This document shows positions 2,980 through 47,658 of a DNA stretch of 64,000 bases, piece by piece. The translations under genes were made by a program, and so were the position numbers. Under the pieces are notes generated by a model that was given only the letters and a program-made list of their open reading frames with translations, was not told where the DNA came from and searched no databases. Each line of letters opens with the position of its first letter. Position 1 is the stretch's first letter. This DNA is from a virus, in IMG/VR virus record IMGVR_UViG_3300047094_001651, positions 27,865-91,864 of that record; one strand, given 5' to 3'.

Positions 2980-3245
2980 GATACTTTACCCCATTTGCCA
3001 ATTGGACAAGAGCCAGATTTTAGTCTAGTCTTTGCACTCATAAAGCAACCACAGCGACGACATTGTGTAGTTTTGGTATTGAAGTCTTCACAAGATCTAC
3101 AGGTAGACATTCGAGCCTCCTGCACTGCTGATTCTACAAAGATGTTGTTGCCCTTGGCAATCTCTCCGAAAGAATCTGTAACAGTTTCAGATAGGTTCTT
3201 AAGTCTACCCATTAGTTCGTTTTTAATATCGTTGGGATTTGACAT
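2976..3245 (-). CDS. Cysteine-rich (zinc-ribbon-like) protein
   Basis: In this 89-residue protein the C-terminal half carries six cysteines: CRSCEDF, then CRRCGCF, then a later CPIG. This is compatible with a small zinc-binding fold. The N-terminal half is a polar helix (IKNELMGRLKNLSETVTDSF). It is unrecognised beyond the zinc-ribbon appearance. The start is immediately after the stop of the 71-residue coiled-coil gene, so the pair is coupled and read from the 3488-3516 promoter. Confidence 0.7.
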   Translation of the reverse strand: MSNPNDIKNELMGRLKNLSETVTDSFGEIAKGNNIFVESAVQEARMSTCRSCEDFNTKTTQCRRCGCFMSAKTRLKSGSCPIGKWGKVS

Positions 3246-3460
3246 TATGCAAGAGCTTCAGCTACTACTTCTGTATCTGCAGTTGGCTCATCCAGCTCTT
3301 CTTCTGGATTAAGAAGAGTTAAACCTTCAATAGCTCCTTGAAGTTTAACATAGAGTTCCTTTTTCTGTGCCAGTTCTGTATCAAGCTTACGGATATCTTC
3401 CATAGTTTGTGCTTGTTGAGTCTTGAAATTTTCAAGAAGTTGTTCAGGTGTCATGGTCAT
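3245..3460 (-). CDS. Small coiled-coil protein (71 residues)
   Basis: Residues 5-50 form a clear amphipathic helix (LLENFKTQQAQTMEDIRKLD and following). This is followed by an acidic, alanine-rich tail (EEELDEPTADTEVV). No enzyme motif is present. It is the first gene behind the minus-strand member of a divergent early promoter pair. The product could be an oligomerising accessory or inhibitor, but this cannot be decided. Confidence 0.65.
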   Translation of the reverse strand: MTMTPEQLLENFKTQQAQTMEDIRKLDTELAQKKELYVKLQGAIEGLTLLNPEEELDEPTADTEVVAEALA

Positions 3461-3606: not shown

Positions 3607-4188
3607 ATGAGTGATTTTACAAAGAAAGGTTGGTATTACCTTCCAGCAATTATTACCAAAGAAGAAGCTATACAAATTAAATATGCAAATCTATCTGGAG
3701 CAATTAGAGATCTTGGTGGATTAAAACCTTATTTTGACCCAGAAAGAGGACACGTATTAACTTGTTACGCTCCTCCAGCATGTGCATTTGTAATGAAAAG
3801 AATACAACCAGTGTTAGAAGAACTTTTAGGAGAAGAACTTATTCCTGCTTATTGGTTCTCTACAACTTATCACAATAGAGGATGGATGAATTGTCATACC
3901 GATAGACCATCATGTGAAATATCAGTTACGATGAATATTTGTGGTGATACTGCTTGGCCAATTAAACTTAAAGATTTAGAAGGAAATAAACAATCAGTTG
4001 TAACTCCTACTGGAGATGGCGTAGCATACTTAGGGACAATTGTACCTCACTGGAGAAGTCCATTGAGAACGCATGAACATGATAGATTTATGCAATTATT
4101 TCTTCATTTTGTGAGAAAGAATGGTCAATATGCAGACTATGCATATGATAAAAATCAAAAGTGTTATGACTTATTGACTAGGATTTAA
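3607..4188 (+). CDS. 2-oxoglutarate/Fe(II)-dependent oxygenase-like protein
   Basis: This 193-residue protein has a plausible iron-binding triad. H97 and D99 lie in NCHTDRPSCEIS, and H148 in VPHWR, with an arginine two residues later. A final FLHFV strand completes a jelly-roll-like pattern. The family hydroxylates proteins or small molecules with O2 and 2-oxoglutarate; such genes are frequent in cyanophages with unknown targets. It is the only gene of the short plus-strand island and has its own early promoter. Its stop overlaps the stop of the convergent oxygenase gene. The assignment is by motif, and the substrate cannot be inferred. Confidence 0.65.
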   Translation: MSDFTKKGWYYLPAIITKEEAIQIKYANLSGAIRDLGGLKPYFDPERGHVLTCYAPPACAFVMKRIQPVLEELLGEELIPAYWFSTTYHNRGWMNCHTDRPSCEISVTMNICGDTAWPIKLKDLEGNKQSVVTPTGDGVAYLGTIVPHWRSPLRTHEHDRFMQLFLHFVRKNGQYADYAYDKNQKCYDLLTRI

Positions 4189-27600: not shown

Positions 27601-30600
27601 TAATTGCACTTTGAATATCATTACTTCCAATTGTAAACTCAGCATTAGCAGCAATAGTAATATTATTAAAGTTTATAGTTGGCTGTACAAATCCTTTACC
27701 AATACCACCACCAAATTGCAGAGTGGTGTTATCATAGTTTGCAAACTGAGTTAGAATAGTCTTAGAAATTCCAGCATTCTCAATAAATGAATCAATAGAT
27801 GTAGCTGCGTTTGGATTTGATGCATTTCCTGCAGGGATAGCGCCAAATTCTCTAGGAGCAATATCAAGAACAAGATATCTAGTTTCAGTGAAACCATTTC
27901 GTCTCAATGGAAGAGCTTTCTTTCTGTTTGTAGCAATAGCAACATCTTCAGCTGCACCATAATTAGTTGTAGTTGAAGTTGGTGTTGTTTTTAATTGAAT
28001 TAATTGAGTTGGATATTCTGAGAATGAACCAGCACCATATGGATAAGGTTGAATGGAATTATCAACTTCATAGTTTGGATTTCTATCAATTATAAGTGAA
28101 ATGTATCCTTCTTCAGAACCACGTATGATACCATAAATTTCAGGAATATCATACTTAGTAATCTCATCACCAAAAATATTAAACTGTGTAAATGATACAA
28201 ATGATTGAGCAGGGATGCTTGTGGTAATGTTATCAGTTAATGTAATTACATTTCCTACAATAGTCTCTACTCTTGTTCCAACTGGAATTAAATTGTTGCC
28301 AGCAGAATCTAAAGCTACAATTTTGTCCCCTGTTAAAATTGATTCAACATTGTCTAATGTAATTGTTTTAGTTCCACTAGCTCCACCAGAAACTACTGTT
28401 TTAATAATTGCTGACTGATAACCACCTTCATGCATGAATCCTTTTGGAAGGAACTGCCTTCTAGTTTCAAGTGCCCAGTTGTATGCAAGTGTGGTAAATT
28501 CTGCTCCATCTTCATTGAGGAAGACTAGTTTTCTCTTTCCAGATGTATATCCTTCTAGATCTAAATCTTCTACGGGATTAGTATAACTTGCATTATTGCC
28601 ATTATTGCCACCTGCAGTGCGATATACTGAAATTAATACCTGAATTTCTTCTGTATTGAGACCAGCGTTCTTTCTTCTGACACTTAGAACTTTAGTAGAC
28701 TTGGATAGATTTTCAACAGTAGCTTCATCTGATAGTTTAATTACTTTACCATTCTCTGCCAACCAATACATGGTTGTACCTGGAATGATATATTTTCTCA
28801 TGCGGTCAAATTGTTCCGCAGTAAAGTCACTTTGCTTCAGTACTACTACTAAATAACGACTATTTGAAATAGTAGCAGAGTTTAATTCATAATAATTTGC
28901 ATTATCTGCAATATCATTTACAATATCTATACTATTGACACTTGGTACTAGTAAAGCGTTTACTCCAGTTCCAGTAGAAACATTTGCAATCACTTCAATT
29001 GCACCGTCAACTCCAGTGCTGTTGATGGTATTCAATGATGGAGTTGATTTAATTTTTCCTTTAATATAATATGCTCTTCTTACTACTCTTCTGGCATTTT
29101 GAAGAACCGGATTGGAGGTATAAATGGAGTCAGGAATTTCACTCTTGGTAATCGCTTCATTTAATCCAAGGAAATGTACATTATTAACATTAAATGAGCC
29201 ATTTGCACCAAGTCCTCCACTCACATTTACATACATTGCATCATTTCCAAATCCCCATTGTGTGTAAAACTCGGGAGAGCGATAAAGATAAATGCTATCT
29301 CCTCTTCGGACAGTATCTTCTAGGTATCCACCCATTCTACCTGCAGATGTACGAGTACGCTCTTTACCAGCAAATACACTGCTATTTGCAACTCCAGTAC
29401 CATTAATTTTAACAGAGCATGGGAACTGAGTTCCATCTAGTTTGTAATAACCAGGCTTCATAAGAAGTTCTAGTTCATCAGCAGAAGTAAATCCAGAGTT
29501 TTCTGCCCACTGCTTTGCCTGGGAGAATGAGAATAGAGGGCTAAATTTCTTAACTGCTCTTCTTTCTTGAATATTAACACCAAGAGCTTTAGAGCTATAT
29601 GGATTAGGTAAATTCTTATCAAACCAATCTTGATCAAGAGTTACTGCAACTGGAAGAGATTTTTGTGGGCTAGTGTACAGAATTGCATCTTCAATATTAA
29701 CTTCCTCTACTACACCCTTTGTTGGATCTAGAGGTGGAATGAATGGAGATTCGGCTGCCCATCTATCAGAAGAATAGACCTGAGTACTACATCCAAAGAA
29801 GAATACATTTTTAGATGCAATTCCTGGATAATTATTTTCGTAGTCAGTTGTAAATTGGGCGCTAGTTCCAGCAGTATTAGTTCCTTCTCCAACGTTTTTA
29901 GTTAGTTTAAATGTTGCAACATTAGTTCCACTATTGTGTCCAGTTTTGTAATATGCAAATGTAGCAATTTTATATGTTCCTCCTTTAGGAGCTTCTCTTA
30001 ATGAAATGCAACCTCTATTTGGCCATTGTTGATATTCATCTGCAGTCATAGTAACCTGCAGATCTTTATATGTTGAAGTATTTAATACGTTAATATCATT
30101 ATTGTTGGTGAAGTTACTTGCAAGTTTTGCGGTTAGATATTTAATATCTCCCTCAGATGCATCTGTTCCAAAATTTCCACCAGTAGCAATGATAGATGGA
30201 TAGTTTTTAATTATGGAAGTATAAGTTCCATTGCCACAATAACTTCTTAGATATGTAGGTAATGCAATTCCATTTTGATAATTTGAAATTACAGCTGTAT
30301 TATCAGTATAATCAATTTCTTGATATTGAAGTGGGATATTAATAACAGGATTGAAGTAAATTTTATTTCCCGATCCATCAACATAAAAATCGGTAACAGT
30401 TAGACCGATTAAATTCATTTCGATATCAATTTTACCATAAGAAGGAATACCAGAACTTTCAGTGAATGCTAGTTTAATTACTGAACTAGTTGACCAAGTA
30501 ACATCATTTACTACAGTATTTGTAAATGTAATTGCATCAGCTACTTTCTTTCCATTTACTGATTTATATGAATCGACAGAGTTTTGTAGATATGGTTGAA

Positions 30601-38929: not shown

Positions 38930-40252
38930 TTAGAATGTTGCTCCGCTGGGTACATTAGTTTTTTTGATTTCATTACCACCAAATGAATCTCTTGTTAATG
39001 TAGCAATAGTTCTAAGTTCAGTTCTATTTAGGATGGTATGCTTAACAGAATGAACAATATATCTGCCACTTAATCTAGTATCTTCTTTTATTTTATTATC
39101 GCTAGTTCTCTTCGGAGAAGGAATAGAAACATTGATTACGTACCCTGGTTGAAGTTTTAAGTCTCCAGGAACAGCGATTTCTAATTTATTATATTCCAAG
39201 AAGTAATATCTGTAAATTGACTTCTCATAATTTTTATTTACTTCATCTATGTTGTTTAAATTTTCAATTTCTTCATTGGATAAATCTTTCCAACCAAATG
39301 TAGAATTTGTGGTAGGTCTATAGATTAATCTAGATGGTCGCTTCAACAAATCTTCATCTTGATATGGAGTCATTTTATTAAGATGACTCATATCTTTCCA
39401 GTATGTTGAGGCATTAGTACTCCAATTTTGAAAGTTACGATTGTTGATATCTACGTACAGTGCATTATGTGCAAATGCACCATTACGAAGGTCATCTAAA
39501 ATATCAAATGCCTTTGTAGATGAATAATTCATAATTCTATAGTTATTCAACTCAGTCTTGGATGCAGATGTATTTCCCTGAACAAACGCATATTTTGTTT
39601 TGTTATTTGGATATGTACCCGCATCAAATAATACGTCTAGAGATTTAAAATTATATCCCTCAAAGGTTTCATAAAATACATATCCCACGGAAGATTTATT
39701 TTTTACTGGAACACTTCTGCGAGACATCCAGATTGCAGTATCAAACAATCTCCAGTTGGGAACATACATGTCAAAAGGATATAATGTATCATCTACATTC
39801 TTTTTAAACTCTTTTTGGCTTATGGTTTTTAATTTTTCTTCTAGAAATACTTCTGCTTTTTTTCCATTTACTCGTTCACGAATTCTAGTGTACTCGTTGT
39901 CTAAAGCTTCTTTACTTATTGCATGAACCACATATACTTGGTTCTTCTCTTGCATTACTCGACCATCAATCTTATGAATGTAAAAATTCAAATCATAATT
40001 TGCATATGGAGTTGAGATATTTAATTCAATTCTTTCTCGTCCAATCAGGGGAAGAGTTTCGATTAAGTTTTCTCCAATATCATTAACTACAAGTTCACAA
40101 TATAAACTAGTGGATATAATACTCTGGTAAAAAGTAACTTCTTTAACAAGTTCTTTGATGTCAATAAACGGACGTTTATCTCCATTAACTGCAGTAAGTG
40201 GATATAACTTTATTGTTTTTAGAGAAAAATCTCCAGCAAATTGTTGATTCAT
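38930..40252 (-). CDS. Baseplate hub protein, possibly gp27-like
   Basis: This 440-residue protein starts with an extended beta-rich region (VKEVTFYQSIISTSLYCELV, then LETLPLIGRERIELNIST). This resembles the N-terminal domains of tail hub proteins that surround the spike (T4 gp27, VgrG/Mu gp44 type). A C-terminal GDLKLQPGYVINVSIPSP segment resembles the second hub barrel. The position directly upstream of CP12 and the gp5-like spike supports a hub role. The gp27 label is by context and fold pattern, not sequence identity. Confidence 0.65.
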   Translation of the reverse strand: MNQQFAGDFSLKTIKLYPLTAVNGDKRPFIDIKELVKEVTFYQSIISTSLYCELVVNDIGENLIETLPLIGRERIELNISTPYANYDLNFYIHKIDGRVMQEKNQVYVVHAISKEALDNEYTRIRERVNGKKAEVFLEEKLKTISQKEFKKNVDDTLYPFDMYVPNWRLFDTAIWMSRRSVPVKNKSSVGYVFYETFEGYNFKSLDVLFDAGTYPNNKTKYAFVQGNTSASKTELNNYRIMNYSSTKAFDILDDLRNGAFAHNALYVDINNRNFQNWSTNASTYWKDMSHLNKMTPYQDEDLLKRPSRLIYRPTTNSTFGWKDLSNEEIENLNNIDEVNKNYEKSIYRYYFLEYNKLEIAVPGDLKLQPGYVINVSIPSPKRTSDNKIKEDTRLSGRYIVHSVKHTILNRTELRTIATLTRDSFGGNEIKKTNVPSGATF

Positions 40253-43230
40253 TAGAGTCTTGTGTTGAGTTTAAACGCAGTTGCGCTATCTATACTTGAG
40301 AATGATCCAGAAGAATAATCTAGTTGCTCAATTGGAGTCAACAATGTAGTACTTGAAATTATATTAGTTCCACCCATCATAATATATGTATCTGGATTTG
40401 GCTTGAAGTCTTTGAATGCTTGGACATAATCCATACTATTTTTTTGTAACTGAGCACCATTTGTCTTTGGAGTTCCAGTTAACATCTGGAACAATTCTCC
40501 TAGATTTTTAGCAATGTCATCATAATTAATTGGTGGCGGTTGCGATTCTTGCTGAGATTCTTCCGACTCTTTTACTGTATTCGGGGATGCAGCTGGAGAT
40601 TGTGAAGGTTGAGCAGGTCCACTAGTTGCACTTCCAGGGGCACCACCTTTCCTCAATAATCCAAATAGACCTTGTGATAATGGATCAACCTTACCATTTA
40701 AAGTCTCTGCTAAATCTTTTTGAGTTGTGTGTTGCTCTAAATGTAAATGTGGCCCACCAGATCTACCAGAGCCAGGTGCTCCTGGTGCGCCACCACTTAA
40801 TGCAACAATTGCATTTGGTGTGAAATCGCCACCCTGCTTTACCCAATTGGGGATAGAGCTTAGGTGTGCAAGTCTGGCAATCTTTCCATCGGATAACTTA
40901 AGATCCATGTATTGACCATAGCCACCATTTGCTTCTCTTTCTTTACTGGAACTTCTAGCAACTTTAAGAAATTTTCCACCTAAAGTAAATGATAAAGGAG
41001 TTCCAGATGGAAATGCAATATCAATTCCTTCATGAGAATTTTTTCTAAATGATTCTTTATTTCCAAACTTACTCGTAATATCTCCTCTTGAAACTAAACC
41101 ACCTTGTTGCATCTTAGGGACACCCGCAGTATTAAAGGTGTGCCGTTTATATACAGTCTCATTAACCTTCTGAGATCTATCATTGCTTGCACCTGCATCA
41201 TAGTTTCTAAATCCAGTTGAATTGATTAGAAATTTTATACTATTTTCACTAACTCCTTCAGCTTCCAATGCTTGTCTCAACTTAGACTTATCCATTCCCA
41301 TTTGCAAAGCTTTCTCTGCAAGGTTCAGTGATCCTTCACCCCACTGCTTGTTAATAGTGCCACTTTGAACTGGAGTATATTGAACACTGTCTTTGGCGTA
41401 TATTATTCCACGAATAGTTTTATCAGTTGCATGGAATAATCCAGGAGAAGCACCACCATCTAAAATTCGCTTTCTATTCAACACAGAATTGACAACCAAT
41501 GCCATTCCAACAACACCTTCACCTGCAGCTTCTGCAAGTGCTAGTTGCTTTAATAAAGTTCTATCGTCAGCGTCAGATAAATCTACTTCCCCACCAACTT
41601 CACCAATATCCCCATTTCTAGTTGTATCACCTGGGCGTGTTTTCTTTTTAGACTTTTTAGTAAAGTCTAGATTGATAATATTGTTTAGAATATCTCCAAG
41701 AATTTCACGAACACTATTCCCAGAATTGTATCTGGCTTTTTTAGCCTCTTCTGCAGTTTCCTTTTTCTTGATTAAATTAATGGTTTTATTCAGACCAAGT
41801 ATTTTAGCAACTTCCTCGTTGTCATTTTGCTCTGGAAGTTTAGTAGTTAAAGGTGTAGTCTTACCTCCAATATTAGAAGTGAACACATAGTTGGTAGATC
41901 CAAACTCTCTTCTGTATGGAGCTAGTAAACTAGATGCATATGGTCTAATCGTTAAGCCAACAGGACCCAATGAAGATATAACTGCATCTATCCCCCCAAT
42001 CATAGAAGATGCAACTATACCCATAGGAGCATTTAATATAGTTCTATCATAAATTTTTGGTAGCGGAATAACTGCTTCTGGCCCAGCCTCACCAATCAAA
42101 GCCCTGGTTGGCTTGGTTACAATACCACCAACAGCAAGTGCAGGTTCTTTAGGTGCGGTGAATCCTTTAAAGAATCCGTATAATTTATCACCAACCCAGT
42201 CTCCAATAAATCCACCAACAAATGCACCAAGTCCAGCACCAGCTGCAGTTCCTGCAACAGGAACGATGCTTCCCAATGCGCCCATTACAATACCACCTAG
42301 CCATGCTCCAATCCCAGCACCAATTGCTTTGACTGCAGCCTTGTCTAGTGGATCACCAAAAATTAGATTTAATCCAAAGCCAAGTATAGGTCCAATGAAA
42401 GGTATTCTAGTTAAAGGCTTGGCAATATTTTTTGCAGTATTTTTTACAAACTCTTTTGCACTTCTGAATCCAATTTTAGAAGCTACCTTAGTCAGGAGTT
42501 TTAAAGTATTCTTTCCAAATACTTTAAGAATTACTCGCTTAACTCCTGCAGTCAATCCTCTGGTATATACAACATATAAATTTGGAGTTAATAGTTTAAA
42601 TAGTCTTCCAAGAGCTTCTTTAAGTTTTCCAGATCCTAATGCTTGGAATACTTTACCAATAGACTTTCTATTCTTTAATATCCAAGTAATGTCTTTAAGT
42701 ATTTTACCTGGAAACAATAGTCTCCTGATAATGAAAAAGCCACCTATGAGTTTAAATATTCCGAAAAATCTTTCTAAAAAGTTGCTTCCAAATAGAACAC
42801 TATGAAGTCCACCAAGAACTCCTTCAACTCCAATACCAGCAAGATGATCTATAATCTTAAAAATATTTTTCATGGCTTTGGCGATTTCGCCAATAGATTC
42901 AATATTCTCTTTGCGAGACATCCACTGTAATACTTTATATCCTACAAAGAACTTGAACAAATCAAATAGTTTTATAGACTTATCTTTAAGTTCTTCACGA
43001 ACAAATCCAGCTTTTCTTTTTGGTTTCTTTGCTTCCTGAAGTCTTTCTTTGTCTCTTAATTTATTTCTATCAATAGTATCCTTTTGAATTTTGAAGAATT
43101 TTTTTTCCAATTCAAAATTCTGTTTTTTCTGCTTTACTAAATCTTGTGCAATACCCTTTATCGTCTTGATTTCTCTTAGACGACTATTACCTATAATGGA
43201 AGCTGGTCTAACTGGTGTTAAGTTTTCCAT
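40252..43230 (-). CDS. Tape-measure-like tail protein with SleB-like and M23 peptidase domains
   Basis: This 992-residue protein has a basic coiled coil at residues 20-90, an FKFFVGYKVLQWMSRKENIE segment, and a glycine-rich hydrophobic region at about 275-355. The tape-measure signature GEAGPEAVIPL follows near 380. A cell-wall hydrolase SleB-like domain begins at about 559 (LALAEAAGEGVVGMALVVNS). An M23 endopeptidase follows at about 733-835, with H733 and D737 in HEGID and the HLHLE metal motif at 828. The enzymes probably cut host peptidoglycan during injection. The last 80 residues share LGELFQML with the next gene. The two genes appear to be diverged tandem duplicates. Confidence 0.75.
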   Translation of the reverse strand: MENLTPVRPASIIGNSRLREIKTIKGIAQDLVKQKKQNFELEKKFFKIQKDTIDRNKLRDKERLQEAKKPKRKAGFVREELKDKSIKLFDLFKFFVGYKVLQWMSRKENIESIGEIAKAMKNIFKIIDHLAGIGVEGVLGGLHSVLFGSNFLERFFGIFKLIGGFFIIRRLLFPGKILKDITWILKNRKSIGKVFQALGSGKLKEALGRLFKLLTPNLYVVYTRGLTAGVKRVILKVFGKNTLKLLTKVASKIGFRSAKEFVKNTAKNIAKPLTRIPFIGPILGFGLNLIFGDPLDKAAVKAIGAGIGAWLGGIVMGALGSIVPVAGTAAGAGLGAFVGGFIGDWVGDKLYGFFKGFTAPKEPALAVGGIVTKPTRALIGEAGPEAVIPLPKIYDRTILNAPMGIVASSMIGGIDAVISSLGPVGLTIRPYASSLLAPYRREFGSTNYVFTSNIGGKTTPLTTKLPEQNDNEEVAKILGLNKTINLIKKKETAEEAKKARYNSGNSVREILGDILNNIINLDFTKKSKKKTRPGDTTRNGDIGEVGGEVDLSDADDRTLLKQLALAEAAGEGVVGMALVVNSVLNRKRILDGGASPGLFHATDKTIRGIIYAKDSVQYTPVQSGTINKQWGEGSLNLAEKALQMGMDKSKLRQALEAEGVSENSIKFLINSTGFRNYDAGASNDRSQKVNETVYKRHTFNTAGVPKMQQGGLVSRGDITSKFGNKESFRKNSHEGIDIAFPSGTPLSFTLGGKFLKVARSSSKEREANGGYGQYMDLKLSDGKIARLAHLSSIPNWVKQGGDFTPNAIVALSGGAPGAPGSGRSGGPHLHLEQHTTQKDLAETLNGKVDPLSQGLFGLLRKGGAPGSATSGPAQPSQSPAASPNTVKESEESQQESQPPPINYDDIAKNLGELFQMLTGTPKTNGAQLQKNSMDYVQAFKDFKPNPDTYIMMGGTNIISSTTLLTPIEQLDYSSGSFSSIDSATAFKLNTRL

Positions 43231-43231
43231 T

Positions 43232-45892
43232 TTATGGTGCTAATGGATAATTGATTAATGAATTCGGTGGAGTTGTGCCTCCTAATGTAGATGTCATTGG
43301 TTGAGATCTTGATTCTGTAATAGTTTTATTTGGCTCGCCTAGAGTTATTACATTACCACCAGCTTTAGTTTGCTGTTTAGCTTGAGCCTGAACTTTTAGA
43401 TTTTCTCTCTGAACTCTCTGTAGATTTTGGGAGTTTCCAGAAACTGCAGTTGTTATTTTAGGAGTCTGCGGAGTGGTAACTTCTGGGACTGTAGTGGGTG
43501 CAGGACCATTTAACATCTGGAATAGTTTGCCCAACTGCTCAGCAGCTTTGGCTCCCATCTCAGCAGTAAATGTTGGTGTAGATTCTGTGGAATCATCAGG
43601 AGAGTCTGTATTAGTTCTGGATGATGTTTTTCCACTTACAGATGGAATAGCTTTGCCAGAGGACCAACTAATTGGATCTATCTTTCCACCAATAGTTCCA
43701 TTCCAAGAACTACCAATTTCCCAATGTAAATGTGGTCCACTACTTCTTCCTCCTCCATGTCGATGCCCACTTAATGCAACTTGTTCACCCGCTTTAATTT
43801 GTTCACCTTGCTTTTTAGAATAATCACTTACATGTCCAAACAGAGAATAAACTCCATTGGAACTTTTTAATACCATGAAATTTCCCCACCCATCAGGATT
43901 CTTTCCGGTTTCTTTCACCATTCCATCGAAAGGTGCAAGTAGCGGAGTTCCTACTGGCATTGGAATATCTGTTCCGCCATGTCGTGAACTCATTCCTCTG
44001 CCTAACGATACACCAGAAGAATCTTCTGGTACAGGAGCCCATCCACCACCAAGCTTTAAAAACTTTTTAGTTGAAACATTTGGACCACCACTACCAAATC
44101 TTGGATACATTCCATAGTTAATAGCATCTAATACTTTTGGACCACCCATTCCCTTGACAGCATTTCGATTCAGGACATACTCTTGAGGTTCTAACAATGC
44201 AGGAATTTTATCTCCACCGCCTTGCCCAGGAACACCACCCTCTCCTTGAGTTGGATACGTGAATATGGAACTCGGCTTAGTAGCTGGAGGAGTGCTCCCT
44301 GAAGTGCCACTAGAAGGGGTTCCAGATGGGGCTGGTGGGGTGGAAGGGGGTGGAGGAGGCGTGGTTCCAGGTGTGGTGGCAGCTTTCTTTTGCTTGCTGA
44401 TCAGAGCACCAAGAATGTTTCCAAGTAATCCTTTAACTGAAGTATCATTGGTTGGAGAAAACTCTTCTCCTTTCTGCTGACGTATATTGACTTCATTCTT
44501 CCCAAATAATTCAGCTACATTGCCAAGTCCTCCAGAAATTGCAGATGTAACACCACCTACAAAATTACTCATTCCCGCAACCAATCCTGCAGGCAAACCA
44601 AAGCTAGATGCAATATTAGAAATCAGTGGAAGTATAAATTGTCCTACACCAGGAATTTTAGATACTGCAGATGAAATTAATGCTACGATTCCTGCACCAA
44701 CAATATTAAATGGTAAAGTCAATAGCTTCATGAATTTAGGAATCATCTTATTGGTAGATGCCTTGAAGCCATCAATACCAAATGATCCCAATTTATCCAG
44801 TGGAAGAATTGCTTCTGGTCCTGCCTCACCAACAATCGCTTCAGTTGGTTTAGTTACGATACCACCCTTAGCTAACTTAGGAAGAGACTCTTGAGTTTTA
44901 GGTCCACTGAATAATGATTTAATAGAACCACCAATCTTGGCTCCAATATTCGCAGCAACATCCATCCCTGGGAACAGAGTCTTCAGGATGTTCTTTCCAA
45001 TATTAGAAAGTGATTCTTTTGCCTTTTCTCCTAGATCTTTTTTACCAGTATCAGATTCTGTTGATGGAGTCTGTGGTTCTGCTGGTTTCTTTGCTTCTAC
45101 TGCTTGATCAGCCTGACCTTCTAGTTCTTTCTGGCTACCAAATAGTCCTTGGGTTAAAACTGATTCCAGGAAATTTGGAATCAAATCAGTCATGAATTTT
45201 ACTGCTAATGTAATTGCATTTGGAATACTTGCAATAACAGAAGTAGCATTTTCAATGGTGGATAATAGCCATTCTACTCCACCGCCCAGCCAACTAAAGC
45301 TGAAAAATTCTGCTACCTTTCCTATGAAATCAAAGACTCCATTGATTACTTTAGAAGTAACCGTAAGAGTTTTCATTAATACATCAACACCAAAGTTGGT
45401 GACTGCACTAATGAATTTAAATAACGTTATGAATAGATTGGCAAAGTCTTGAATTTTGCTTATGTTTTCTTTTTTGGATGCCCACTCAAGAACTTTATAC
45501 CCAACGAAAAACTTCAGAAGATTTTTGAAGAATCCTCCGATCATTGATAGATCAGACTTTGCTTTTTCTAAAACAGGGTTCTTTTCTTTATCCTTTCCTA
45601 GTTTCTTTTTCTTTTCTTGCTCAGACTCTTCTTGCTTTAATTTATTTCTTTCGTCTTCTTTAGCAAAATGTAGAATCCTATCCCCTAAAAATTGATAATA
45701 TCTTTTCTCTAATGCTAATAATCCACCAAGGATTTTTCTGACCTGGCCGAATTCTTCTACTTCTTTCTTTGTAATATTTGCGCCAGACACTCTCCCTCCA
45801 GTAATCGCAGATGGATTTACTGGAGATAGTCTTCTAGATCTGAGTGACTCAGAAAATGATCTAAATGATGTCTGAGTTTGTCTGGCTGGCAT
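43232..45892 (-). CDS. Tape-measure-like tail protein with M23 peptidase domain
   Basis: This 886-residue paralog of the downstream gene has the same LKFFVGYKVLEWASKKENIS segment, the GEAGPEAILPLDKL motif near 365, and hydrophobic blocks around 400-450. A long proline/serine linker follows. An M23 domain covers about 638-735, with H638 and D642 in HGGTD and HLHWE at 721. The C-terminal LGKLFQML motif is also shared. It lacks the SleB-like domain. It lies five bases downstream of the frameshifted extension of the gp26-like gene. That is where a tape measure normally sits, after a tail-assembly chaperone pair. Confidence 0.75.
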   Translation of the reverse strand: MPARQTQTSFRSFSESLRSRRLSPVNPSAITGGRVSGANITKKEVEEFGQVRKILGGLLALEKRYYQFLGDRILHFAKEDERNKLKQEESEQEKKKKLGKDKEKNPVLEKAKSDLSMIGGFFKNLLKFFVGYKVLEWASKKENISKIQDFANLFITLFKFISAVTNFGVDVLMKTLTVTSKVINGVFDFIGKVAEFFSFSWLGGGVEWLLSTIENATSVIASIPNAITLAVKFMTDLIPNFLESVLTQGLFGSQKELEGQADQAVEAKKPAEPQTPSTESDTGKKDLGEKAKESLSNIGKNILKTLFPGMDVAANIGAKIGGSIKSLFSGPKTQESLPKLAKGGIVTKPTEAIVGEAGPEAILPLDKLGSFGIDGFKASTNKMIPKFMKLLTLPFNIVGAGIVALISSAVSKIPGVGQFILPLISNIASSFGLPAGLVAGMSNFVGGVTSAISGGLGNVAELFGKNEVNIRQQKGEEFSPTNDTSVKGLLGNILGALISKQKKAATTPGTTPPPPPSTPPAPSGTPSSGTSGSTPPATKPSSIFTYPTQGEGGVPGQGGGDKIPALLEPQEYVLNRNAVKGMGGPKVLDAINYGMYPRFGSGGPNVSTKKFLKLGGGWAPVPEDSSGVSLGRGMSSRHGGTDIPMPVGTPLLAPFDGMVKETGKNPDGWGNFMVLKSSNGVYSLFGHVSDYSKKQGEQIKAGEQVALSGHRHGGGRSSGPHLHWEIGSSWNGTIGGKIDPISWSSGKAIPSVSGKTSSRTNTDSPDDSTESTPTFTAEMGAKAAEQLGKLFQMLNGPAPTTVPEVTTPQTPKITTAVSGNSQNLQRVQRENLKVQAQAKQQTKAGGNVITLGEPNKTITESRSQPMTSTLGGTTPPNSLINYPLAP

Positions 45893-45896
45893 TTAA

Positions 45897-46085
45897 CTAC
45901 AACGATGTTGTTGTTCTGTTTCTATTATTTTCCTCTTCAATATAGTCAACTAACATCTGAACATAAATTTCTCTTTCCCATGGTAACATACATTCAATTT
46001 CGGAAAGAGACCACTTATGATGTTGAAGTAATATAAAATTAATTCTAAAGTAATTTTCTAGCGATTCGTGCGCTAGGGCTATGCG
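45897..46085 (-). CDS. -1 frameshift extension of the gp26-like chaperone
   Basis: This 62-codon frame has no usable start codon near its beginning and is open backwards into the gp26-like gene in the -1 frame. It reads RIALAHESLENYF, then LLQHHKWSLSEIECMLPWER, then a charged tail. This resembles the second part of frameshifted tail-assembly chaperones. A slip on T-TTT-TTC at 46085-46091 would join it to residue 235 of the upstream protein, giving a 297-residue fusion (46789 to 45897). It fills the gap before the tape-measure-like gene exactly. Separate initiation at the internal methionine would give only a short fragment. Confidence 0.75.
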   Translation of the reverse strand, partial: RIALAHESLENYFRINFILLQHHKWSLSEIECMLPWEREIYVQMLVDYIEEENNRNRTTTSL

Positions 46086-46091
46086 AAAAAA
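46058..46091 (-). promoter_or_regulatory. Programmed -1 ribosomal frameshift signal
   Basis: The minus-strand heptamer T-TTT-TTC (46085-46091) lies in the zero frame two codons before the TAG stop. After eight bases there is a perfect 6-base-pair stem, CTAGCG (46071-46076) with CGCTAG (46058-46063), and a 7-base loop. Heptamer, spacer and stem match the classical arrangement. Confidence 0.78.
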
Positions 46092-46789
46092 GCTGCAAGA
46101 CCTTCTAGTACCACATCACTTTCTACATTTGTTACTGGGTTAGTAACCTTAACTGTATGAGATAGCTTTGGCATAGTCTCAAAGAATTTTTGAATCAGTA
46201 AAAACTGTGCAGTATCTAAGCTATCAAGGAAATCGTTAATTTCTTTTTTAGAGAAACTCTTGGTTTCATAAACATCTTCCCCTTCTACAACTTGTTCAAT
46301 GCAAGATGCAGCAATCTCAAATACGTCTTCAGTTTTTACACTAGCTGTAAAGTTTGACTTAACAAACATTTCCATACTAGGGTATTTCATTACAACAGAA
46401 ATAGTATCATTCAATGAAATAATTCTAGAATGATCTTCAGACTTTTGAATCTGAATATCCTCAACATTAATCTCTAGTGGAACTGTAGTTTCCCCATCAT
46501 CTGGGCAAGTGATGTTGAGTTCGATTTGTTCTCCCACAGACTTAGCACGAATATTGAGGAACAAATATTCGATATCAAATACTGCTAGGTCATCAACTTT
46601 AATTTTAGAGTTAATGCAATTTCTTAGGATGGTTTTCACTGCATTAATCATCTGAGATTCATCTTCAGATTCCATCGCCATCAGAAGAACTTTTTCTTCT
46701 TTTACTAGAAATGGTCTATATTTAATTAATTGATCAGTTGATGGTAAACGCAATTCATACGTCGGAGTTACAATTTTAGGTAAAGGCAT
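46079..46789 (-). CDS. gp26-like baseplate hub / tail assembly chaperone
   Basis: This 236-residue protein resembles T4 baseplate hub protein gp26 and relatives. It begins MPLPKIVTPTYELRLPSTDQ, followed by YRPFLVKEEKVLLMAME and a central NITCPDDGETTVPLEINVED. The arrangement here, with a -1 frameshift site at its end and tape-measure-like genes next, is that of the lambda G/GT tail-assembly chaperones, suggesting that role in T4-like cyanophages. The zero-frame product ends LAAFFA. A late box at 46816-46823 lies 27 bases upstream. Confidence 0.75.
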   Translation of the reverse strand: MPLPKIVTPTYELRLPSTDQLIKYRPFLVKEEKVLLMAMESEDESQMINAVKTILRNCINSKIKVDDLAVFDIEYLFLNIRAKSVGEQIELNITCPDDGETTVPLEINVEDIQIQKSEDHSRIISLNDTISVVMKYPSMEMFVKSNFTASVKTEDVFEIAASCIEQVVEGEDVYETKSFSKKEINDFLDSLDTAQFLLIQKFFETMPKLSHTVKVTNPVTNVESDVVLEGLAAFFA

Positions 46790-46824: not shown

Positions 46825-47658
46825 TTAGTTAGTTATCTGTAACCAGTTTGATGCTTCCAGAACACTTCCACCTGCAGTTTGAGATGATGGCACTGCAAGT
46901 TCATATTCAAATGTTACCTGCACTCTAACTAACTGAGAAGATCCACTGGACAATGGAATTGAAGAGATAGTGGTAGGAAAACAATTCCTCAGCCTAACTG
47001 AATATGTGTAAAATGGTTTTCCAAATCCAGGAAGAAGTGGTCCATTATAATCTGGTATAATTTGTTTGTTATCATAGAAGTTACGTTGTGAATCAATATT
47101 AGTAACTCGTGGTCTAGTATTTTTCTTACTGCTTCTATGTCTTTCCAATTTAGCCACAACAATATCTGTTACATAATCATCACGATATCTAGTTCTTCCA
47201 AGATCTATTTTAGTAGTAAAATTCAAATTAGTATTTGATACAACTCCTCCTGCCAATGAAACACTACCGTAAATATAATTACCCCAGGCATCAAATATTC
47301 TTCTGATCTCAGCATCTGCATCTAAAATAAATGATATTGTGATTTCATTGTTTACTATACCGTATGCATATTTCATTGATGGAGTATTGGTTATTCTATA
47401 ATCTCCAGTTGAAATTGAGTATCCAGGAATAGAACATTCATCCGCATACAATCTTAAAAGTCCTTCCATAAAAGACGCACTGGTATTATTTGGATTACCA
47501 GACATCCCAAGATTAAATATATTTTTTAATAGTTGAGAGTTACTAGAATCATTACTAAGATAAAATTGCACATCATAAAAGTTACTTAATGAAAAGCCAT
47601 GCTTTTGTACAAAACCTTTGAACTCTTTAAAATTTGTAGGAGTAGTATTGATGCTCAT
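46825..47658 (-). CDS. Baseplate tail-tube-like protein (gp54-like by position)
   Basis: This 277-residue protein has the pattern of a tail-tube fold. An early FYDVQFYLSN strand is followed by the ECSIPGYSISTGDYRI segment that precedes the tube loop in many contractile-tail proteins. Then comes ITISFILDADAEIRRIFDAW, a strand-helix pair of the tube domain, and a final VTFEYELAVP strand. T4 gp54 and gp48 have such folds, and the gp48-like gene lies close by, so gp54 (tube initiator) is the best guess. It overlaps the upstream gene by four bases. Confidence 0.65.
   Translation of the reverse strand: MSINTTPTNFKEFKGFVQKHGFSLSNFYDVQFYLSNDSSNSQLLKNIFNLGMSGNPNNTSASFMEGLLRLYADECSIPGYSISTGDYRITNTPSMKYAYGIVNNEITISFILDADAEIRRIFDAWGNYIYGSVSLAGGVVSNTNLNFTTKIDLGRTRYRDDYVTDIVVAKLERHRSSKKNTRPRVTNIDSQRNFYDNKQIIPDYNGPLLPGFGKPFYTYSVRLRNCFPTTISSIPLSSGSSQLVRVQVTFEYELAVPSSQTAGGSVLEASNWLQITN

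Follow-up and report, generated by a model that had tools for sequence, protein, structure and literature searches.

The closest described systems to the locus analysed here are the tail assembly chaperone (TAC) genes of other T4-like phages, in which a −1 frameshift was reported by Vladimirov, Gautam and Davidson (Virology 2022, doi 10.1016/j.virol.2021.11.003), according to papers citing that study. The PRFect paper (PMC10885494) refers to it for T4-like phages in which a short gene is accompanied by a long, fused one, and the Adele paper (PMC12846349) does so for poly-T −1 signals within the TAC-N genes of these phages. As far as these citing papers convey, the mechanism in T4-like phages has been known since 2022, and our phage provides one more example together with some new information about stimulators: what it shares with the TAC-N/TAC-NC pairs they describe is the poly-T −1 signal in the TAC-N gene, and what the present set adds is lineage-specific hairpins and an upstream purine patch, both measured here. 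The abstract of the 2022 study is said to describe frameshifting as conserved in several T4-like groups, with T4 itself using genes 26 and 51. A second point of comparison is phage lambda, where, according to PMC5009743, a short form (gpG) and a minor −1-shifted long form (gpGT) are encoded before the tape-measure gene; the likeness to our locus is one of arrangement.

The DNA analysed (the window) is a stretch of 64,000 nucleotides from IMG/VR virus record IMGVR_UViG_3300047094_001651 (positions 27,865 to 91,864), and the locus lies on its minus strand at the end of a gp26-like gene whose last codons are GCT TTT TTC GCA TAG (Table 1). The slippery site, T TTT TTC when divided into gp26 codons, is a different heptamer from that of lambda, which is GGGAAAG. 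The original prediction for this locus had described an in-frame heptamer close to the gp26 stop, an 8-base spacer leading to a perfectly paired CTAGCG/CGCTAG stem with a 7-base loop, and a −1 frame open for 62 codons with no start of its own. Each of these elements is present. The −1 frame contains no ATG, GTG or TTG between its upstream stop and codon 33 of the extension (a scan carried out partly on the relative L002, whose DNA equals that of the window across these 899 bases), and the extension protein begins RIALAH and ends TTTSL. If the shift takes place, the gp26-gp51 fusion is exactly 297 residues long, in agreement with the rough figure of 297 given beforehand, and the ATG of the next gene (at 45892) follows 4 bases after the −1 stop. 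The abundance of the heptamer was dropped as a line of evidence, TTTTTTC being at chance level in the window (33 copies vs 32.7 expected). Among the 36 open reading frames of at least 150 codons in the window (18,167 codons) there are two in-frame cases of TTTTTTC, and one case within the last five codons. The placement of this heptamer is not put down to chance; it recurs together with the −1 domain in 157/157 assessable IMG/VR loci.

Table 1. Features of the gp26-gp51 locus and its neighbours in the window.
Feature	Coordinates	Strand	Details
Tail-tube-like gene, upstream	46825..47658	minus	PHROG 45 tail tube, E 1.5e-31; Pfam Phage_TTP_2, E 1e-13
gp26-like gene	46079..46789	minus	236 codons + TAG; 236-aa zero-frame product, putative TAC-N
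Shine-Dalgarno-like GAAGG	46101..46105	minus	9 bases 5′ of heptamer; possible stimulator
Slippery heptamer TTTTTTC	46085..46091	minus	reads T TTT TTC in the gp26 frame
Zero-frame stop TAG	46079..46081	minus	single codon (GCA) separates heptamer from TAG
Stem-loop CTAGCG/CGCTAG	46058..46076	minus	arms 46071-46076 and 46058-46063; 7-base loop
−1 extension, gp51-like (putative TAC-C of TAC-NC)	45897..46085	minus	62 codons (46085-45900) + TAG (45899-45897)
Large tail gene, downstream, tape-measure position	43232..45892	minus	Pfam Peptidase_M23, E 7e-21

The short product matches Pfam T4_baseplate (PF12322, E 1e-73) and PHROG 150, 'baseplate hub' (E 7e-82, profile positions 5-232). For the −1 product the match is to PHROG 634, 'baseplate hub assembly catalyst' (E 3e-26), which bears out the suggestion that the fused part is gp51-like. 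This product also matches PHROG 150 weakly (E 1.4e-4) at positions 232-276, adjoining the region covered by the short product, as would be expected if some members of the family are fused. The order of genes is tail tube, chaperone, large tail gene, so that the predicted map position ahead of a tape-measure-like gene holds, with a tail-tube-like gene upstream and a large M23-containing tail gene directly downstream. The product of the latter hits tape-measure PHROGs with E values no better than 1.8e-9, in part by way of its peptidase domain, and its position together with these modest profile matches suggests that it is the tape measure. The large tail genes at 40252-43230 and 43232-45892 have a common N-terminal motif (FFVGYKVL.W.S.KENI) and both contain M23 peptidase domains, and on this basis they look like tandem paralogues.

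We consider it very probable (roughly 93%) that the gp26-gp51 locus encodes a TAC-N/TAC-NC pair made by −1 frameshifting. This reading is founded on the sequence signal and how widely it is kept, on the purifying selection acting on the −1 frame, on the identity of the domains and on the chaperone-like predicted fold of the N-terminus. From it we infer that slippage occurs and at what rate, what the stimulators do and which proteins are bound. The gp26-like gene would encode the short tail assembly chaperone, TAC-N, near the end of which some ribosomes, on reaching T TTT TTC, would move back by a single base, probably aided by the Shine-Dalgarno-like patch upstream and the hairpin downstream. 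Those that slip would pass the TAG and add 62 gp51-like residues, giving a TAC-NC of 297 residues. By analogy with gpG and gpGT of lambda, the tape-measure protein would be covered by many copies of the short form and few of the long form, whose additional C-terminal domain would recruit tail-tube subunits.

Relatives were gathered in two batches. A search of IMG/VR with gp26 supplied the first, consisting of the best 80 of 580 confirmed candidate loci, and the gp26 proteins of KVP40, Rhizobium N34 and phiN3 supplied the second, in which 77 of 81 loci were assessed (L145, L166, L167 and L182 were excluded because they run off the contig end). The second batch re-includes KVP40 (L102) and phiN3 (L105), while L002 and L025 are identical in DNA to the window at this locus. 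TTTTTTC stands in frame near the gp26 stop in 80/80 loci of the first batch (the best 80 of 580), 79 of which have a complete −1 extension of 60-65 codons; the extension of L044 ends at the contig end, and this locus was excluded from counts of complete extensions. T TTT TTN is found in 77/77 assessable loci of the second batch (final base C in 62, T in 14, G in 1), again with a complete −1 extension in 77/77, here of 57-73 codons. The extension proteins are diverse, with 46 distinct ones in the first batch and 45 in the second, and a profile that we derived from 30 extensions of the first batch matches 157/157 loci (the best 80 of 580 plus the 77), the weakest at E 5e-9. The distance from the heptamer to the zero-frame stop ranges from 0 to 24 bases and is 3 bases in 117/157 loci. 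We chose 30 representatives from the 79 complete first-batch loci (<90% identity) and 31 from the 77 second-batch loci, and across these 61 the heptamer is TTTTTTC in 54, TTTTTTT in 6 and TTTTTTG in 1.

We also examined 18 annotated phages from a set of 20 records, T4 and ZX13 being handled separately. The T TTT TTN heptamer and the −1 frame occur together in 16 of the 18, namely S-PM2, S-RSM4, S-SM2, P-HM2, HTVC008M, Melnitz-2, phiN3, Milchi, BUCT608, KVP40, RHph_N34, OLIVR6, S13, PX29, AS-yj and D486. Within this set of 18, the heptamer is absent from the Vibrio phages D506 and K444, though a gp51-like −1 frame is kept. It had been said in advance that the frameshift would be refuted if close relatives lacked the heptamer or had lost the −1 frame. 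This is not what we see: both are kept in 157/157 loci and in 16/18 annotated phages. The signal extends past cyanophages to KVP40 and to phages of Sinorhizobium, Rhizobium, Pelagibacter, Cronobacter and Aeromonas, so that the earlier description of a chaperone pair of T4-like cyanophages gains support as regards the pair but is too narrow as regards the phages. Used as queries, the gp26 proteins of KVP40, Rhizobium N34 and Vibrio D506 yielded 2, 1 and 0 loci, respectively, so that our sampling of distant groups is sparse.

Purifying selection acts on the −1 frame. It has no stop in 1878 codons of the 30 representatives, compared with 185 and 199 stops in the other two frames. We compared 29 pairs, each sharing ≥70% DNA identity, among 12 representatives whose extensions are 62 codons long. 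In the −1 frame mean pN is 0.12 vs a mean pS of 0.62, with pN below pS in 29/29 pairs; the same DNA gives pN/pS values of 0.19/0.20 and 0.24/0.08 in the other frames. The slippery site is constrained at the synonymous level: the base preceding the two phenylalanine codons is T in 30/30 representatives (p 9e-8 given the codon usage of these genes) and the codons themselves are TTT TTC in 30/30 (p 1e-19), both p values treating the lineages as independent.

Among other explanations for the two-frame layout, gp51 might be a separate small gene whose translation starts in or just after gp26 by coupled re-initiation, the heptamer being incidental. Public annotation favours such a gene, in that none of the 16 annotated heptamer-carrying records has a joined gp26-gp51 gene; 14 of them list the gp51-like part as a CDS of its own (11 of these 14 being named gp51 or hub-assembly) and two (S13 and AS-yj) do not annotate it. 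The two heptamer-less Vibrio phages point the same way, with an ATG that overlaps the gp26 stop. However, the first possible start in the −1 frame varies in position from the 2nd to the 33rd codon over the 79 complete first-batch loci (from the best 80 of 580), and the annotated starts are scattered too. In 13 of the 79 loci (two of which are the window DNA) it is codon 33, which lies inside the conserved domain. A separate gene also leaves the invariant T TTT TTC, with its synonymous constraint, unexplained, and we regard this account as very unlikely. On the frameshift reading, what 14/16 records annotate as a separate gene following gp26 most likely forms the C-terminus of a fusion with gp26, and the genes in those records should therefore be joined. 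The fusion would also explain why, in Sullivan 2010 (PMC3037559), cyanophage and marine vibriophage gp51 proteins are described as lacking the first ~200 residues. In Cronobacter phage S13 (L094) and Aeromonas phage AS-yj (L098) the gp51-like extension is unannotated, yet the −1 frame is open. In the Vibrio phages D506 (L095, about 3690-3900) and K444 (L100, about 3200-3405) the overlap of the ATG with the gp26 stop takes the form TAATG, which in the absence of the heptamer suggests re-initiation or a weaker shift.

The sequences flanking the heptamer are less uniform. The exact stem was rejected as a feature of the family, as all six pairs are kept in 3/30 representatives and in 4/45 distinct downstream sequences, and the CTAGCG/CGCTAG arms are a property of the window phage and some close relatives only. 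Of the three elements whose conservation was to be checked, the heptamer and the −1 frame are kept (157/157 loci) and the stem is not (exact arms in 3/30 representatives). We compared the folding of the 45 bases 3′ of the heptamer with that of shuffled sequences preserving the −1 protein, kinship between the sequences being ignored. The window hairpin (measured on L002) is stronger than these −1-synonymous shuffles (z −2.87, p 0.01). Across 46 sequences (the 30 representatives and 16 annotated phages, kinship ignored), significant hairpins (p ≤0.05) occur in 22, with about 2 expected, and by the same test a significant hairpin within these 45 bases is absent in the remaining 24. The mean z is −1.54, compared with −0.30 in control stretches taken from gp26. 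Lineages differ in the stem they carry, S-PM2 for instance having a long stem (p 0.04) and P-HM2 a different one.

Upstream, a purine patch with Shine-Dalgarno character is found 9 bases before the heptamer, reading GAAGG in the window and mostly GAGGG in the first-batch representatives. Its Glu-Gly codon pair uses GAG in 21/27 cases here vs 77/250 elsewhere in the loci (p 7e-7) and in 13/17 cases in the second batch; the window itself uses the minority codon GAA. A Shine-Dalgarno-like core is present in 30/30, 24/31 and 13/16 of the sequences in three sets vs 10% of control windows, and predicted pairing to the end of E. coli 16S rRNA is better than that of synonymous shuffles in 24/30 representatives. 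E. coli dnaX combines the same three elements, a Shine-Dalgarno-like patch about 10 bases upstream, a slippery heptamer and a downstream stem-loop, and by analogy the patch and hairpin found here may stimulate shifting; the dnaX gene is unrelated, and its shifted product is the shorter one. We advance only tentatively, at a little under even odds, the idea that patch, T TTT TTC and hairpin form a cassette in which the slippery site would be fixed across much of the superfamily and the hairpin would have given way time and again to an unrelated hairpin with much the same spacing, such that selection keeps the rate of shifting and not the RNA sequence. A literature search covering papers outside subscription, in their accessible text, returned no earlier account of hairpins or of an upstream patch for gp26.

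The run of T could instead act during transcription, with RNA polymerase slipping on it so that some of the transcripts differ in their number of U and are translated without any ribosomal shift. Longer runs in some relatives, with eight T in HTVC008M and Melnitz-2, lend this some weight, but the window has just six T followed by C and 54 of the 61 representatives likewise have TTTTTTC. The phase of the heptamer relative to the codon frame, the purine patch upstream and the hairpins downstream all fit a ribosome better, and as a general account polymerase slippage seems to us highly improbable. In Pelagibacter phage HTVC008M (L086) and Methylophilales phage Melnitz-2 (L087) the eight-T run extends into the zero-frame TAA, and transcriptional slippage could contribute in those lineages. 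An error in the sequence, or a frameshift mutation that has split a decayed gene, could not be excluded from one genome by itself but is refuted, and is the least probable account of all, by the same two-frame layout in 157/157 assessable contigs and 16/18 annotated phages, with purifying selection.

In T4 the two proteins are obtained without the shift. Genes 26 (208 aa) and 51 (249 aa) are separate and lie on opposite strands, so that T4 would make the two forms from two separate genes, whereas the window phage would make both from one locus. T4 gp51 covers positions 13-280 of the 282 in PHROG 150, while T4 gp26 reaches only to 235, and T4 gp51 also matches PHROG 634. A profile of the −1 extensions built without T4 finds residues 207-241 of T4 gp51 (E 6e-5 when searched alongside 2000 shuffled decoys) and also ZX13 gp51, with no gp26 and none of the 2000 decoys at E ≤1. 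T4 gp26 and gp51 are identical at 34 of 177 aligned residues, and the alignment of gp51 to the fusion spans the junction, while gp26 aligns with the short form. On the basis of this coverage and these alignments, we can conclude that T4 gp26 is the counterpart of the short form and gp51 that of the fusion, their domains being homologous to those of the window proteins. T4 and its relatives thus offer a clean comparison of two routes to the same two proteins, by recoding or by separate genes. In Leiman 2010 (PMC3004832), gp26 and gp51 of T4 are listed as hub assembly chaperones, and gp51 is needed for assembly, yet is absent from the particle. The same text cites genetic studies placing gp26 in the baseplate hub, i.e. 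in the particle, which is a poor fit to a pure assembly chaperone.

Finally, we considered the predicted structure of the short form (the zero-frame gp26 product, modelled on its own and not as the fusion). The AlphaFold2 model has a mean pLDDT of 88 and a pTM of 0.81. A sequence search of the PDB found no relative of the short form up to E 1, and a Foldseek search of the PDB with the model gave nothing under E 0.001. The top row of a VIA-align comparison is 2ob9, the HK97 tail assembly chaperone (Z 7.1, rmsd 3.7, 84 of 236 residues), where a Z under 8 is weak alone, and the next rows are 3klu (YqbN; Z 6.5) and 3fgx (Z 6.4), both of which we take to be chaperones of the tail-assembly type; the rows that follow are at 4.6 and below. 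All three top rows fall within residues 1-94 of the model. The predicted N-terminal domain of gp26 therefore appears to resemble solved tail assembly chaperones to a moderate degree, and a Z of 7.1 over 84 of 236 residues can reflect a common arrangement. Against a library of viral structures the model has 62 matches at E ≤0.001, and among the 50 matches listed 17 are named as baseplate or gp26-like, the others being unnamed, uncharacterised or otherwise named.
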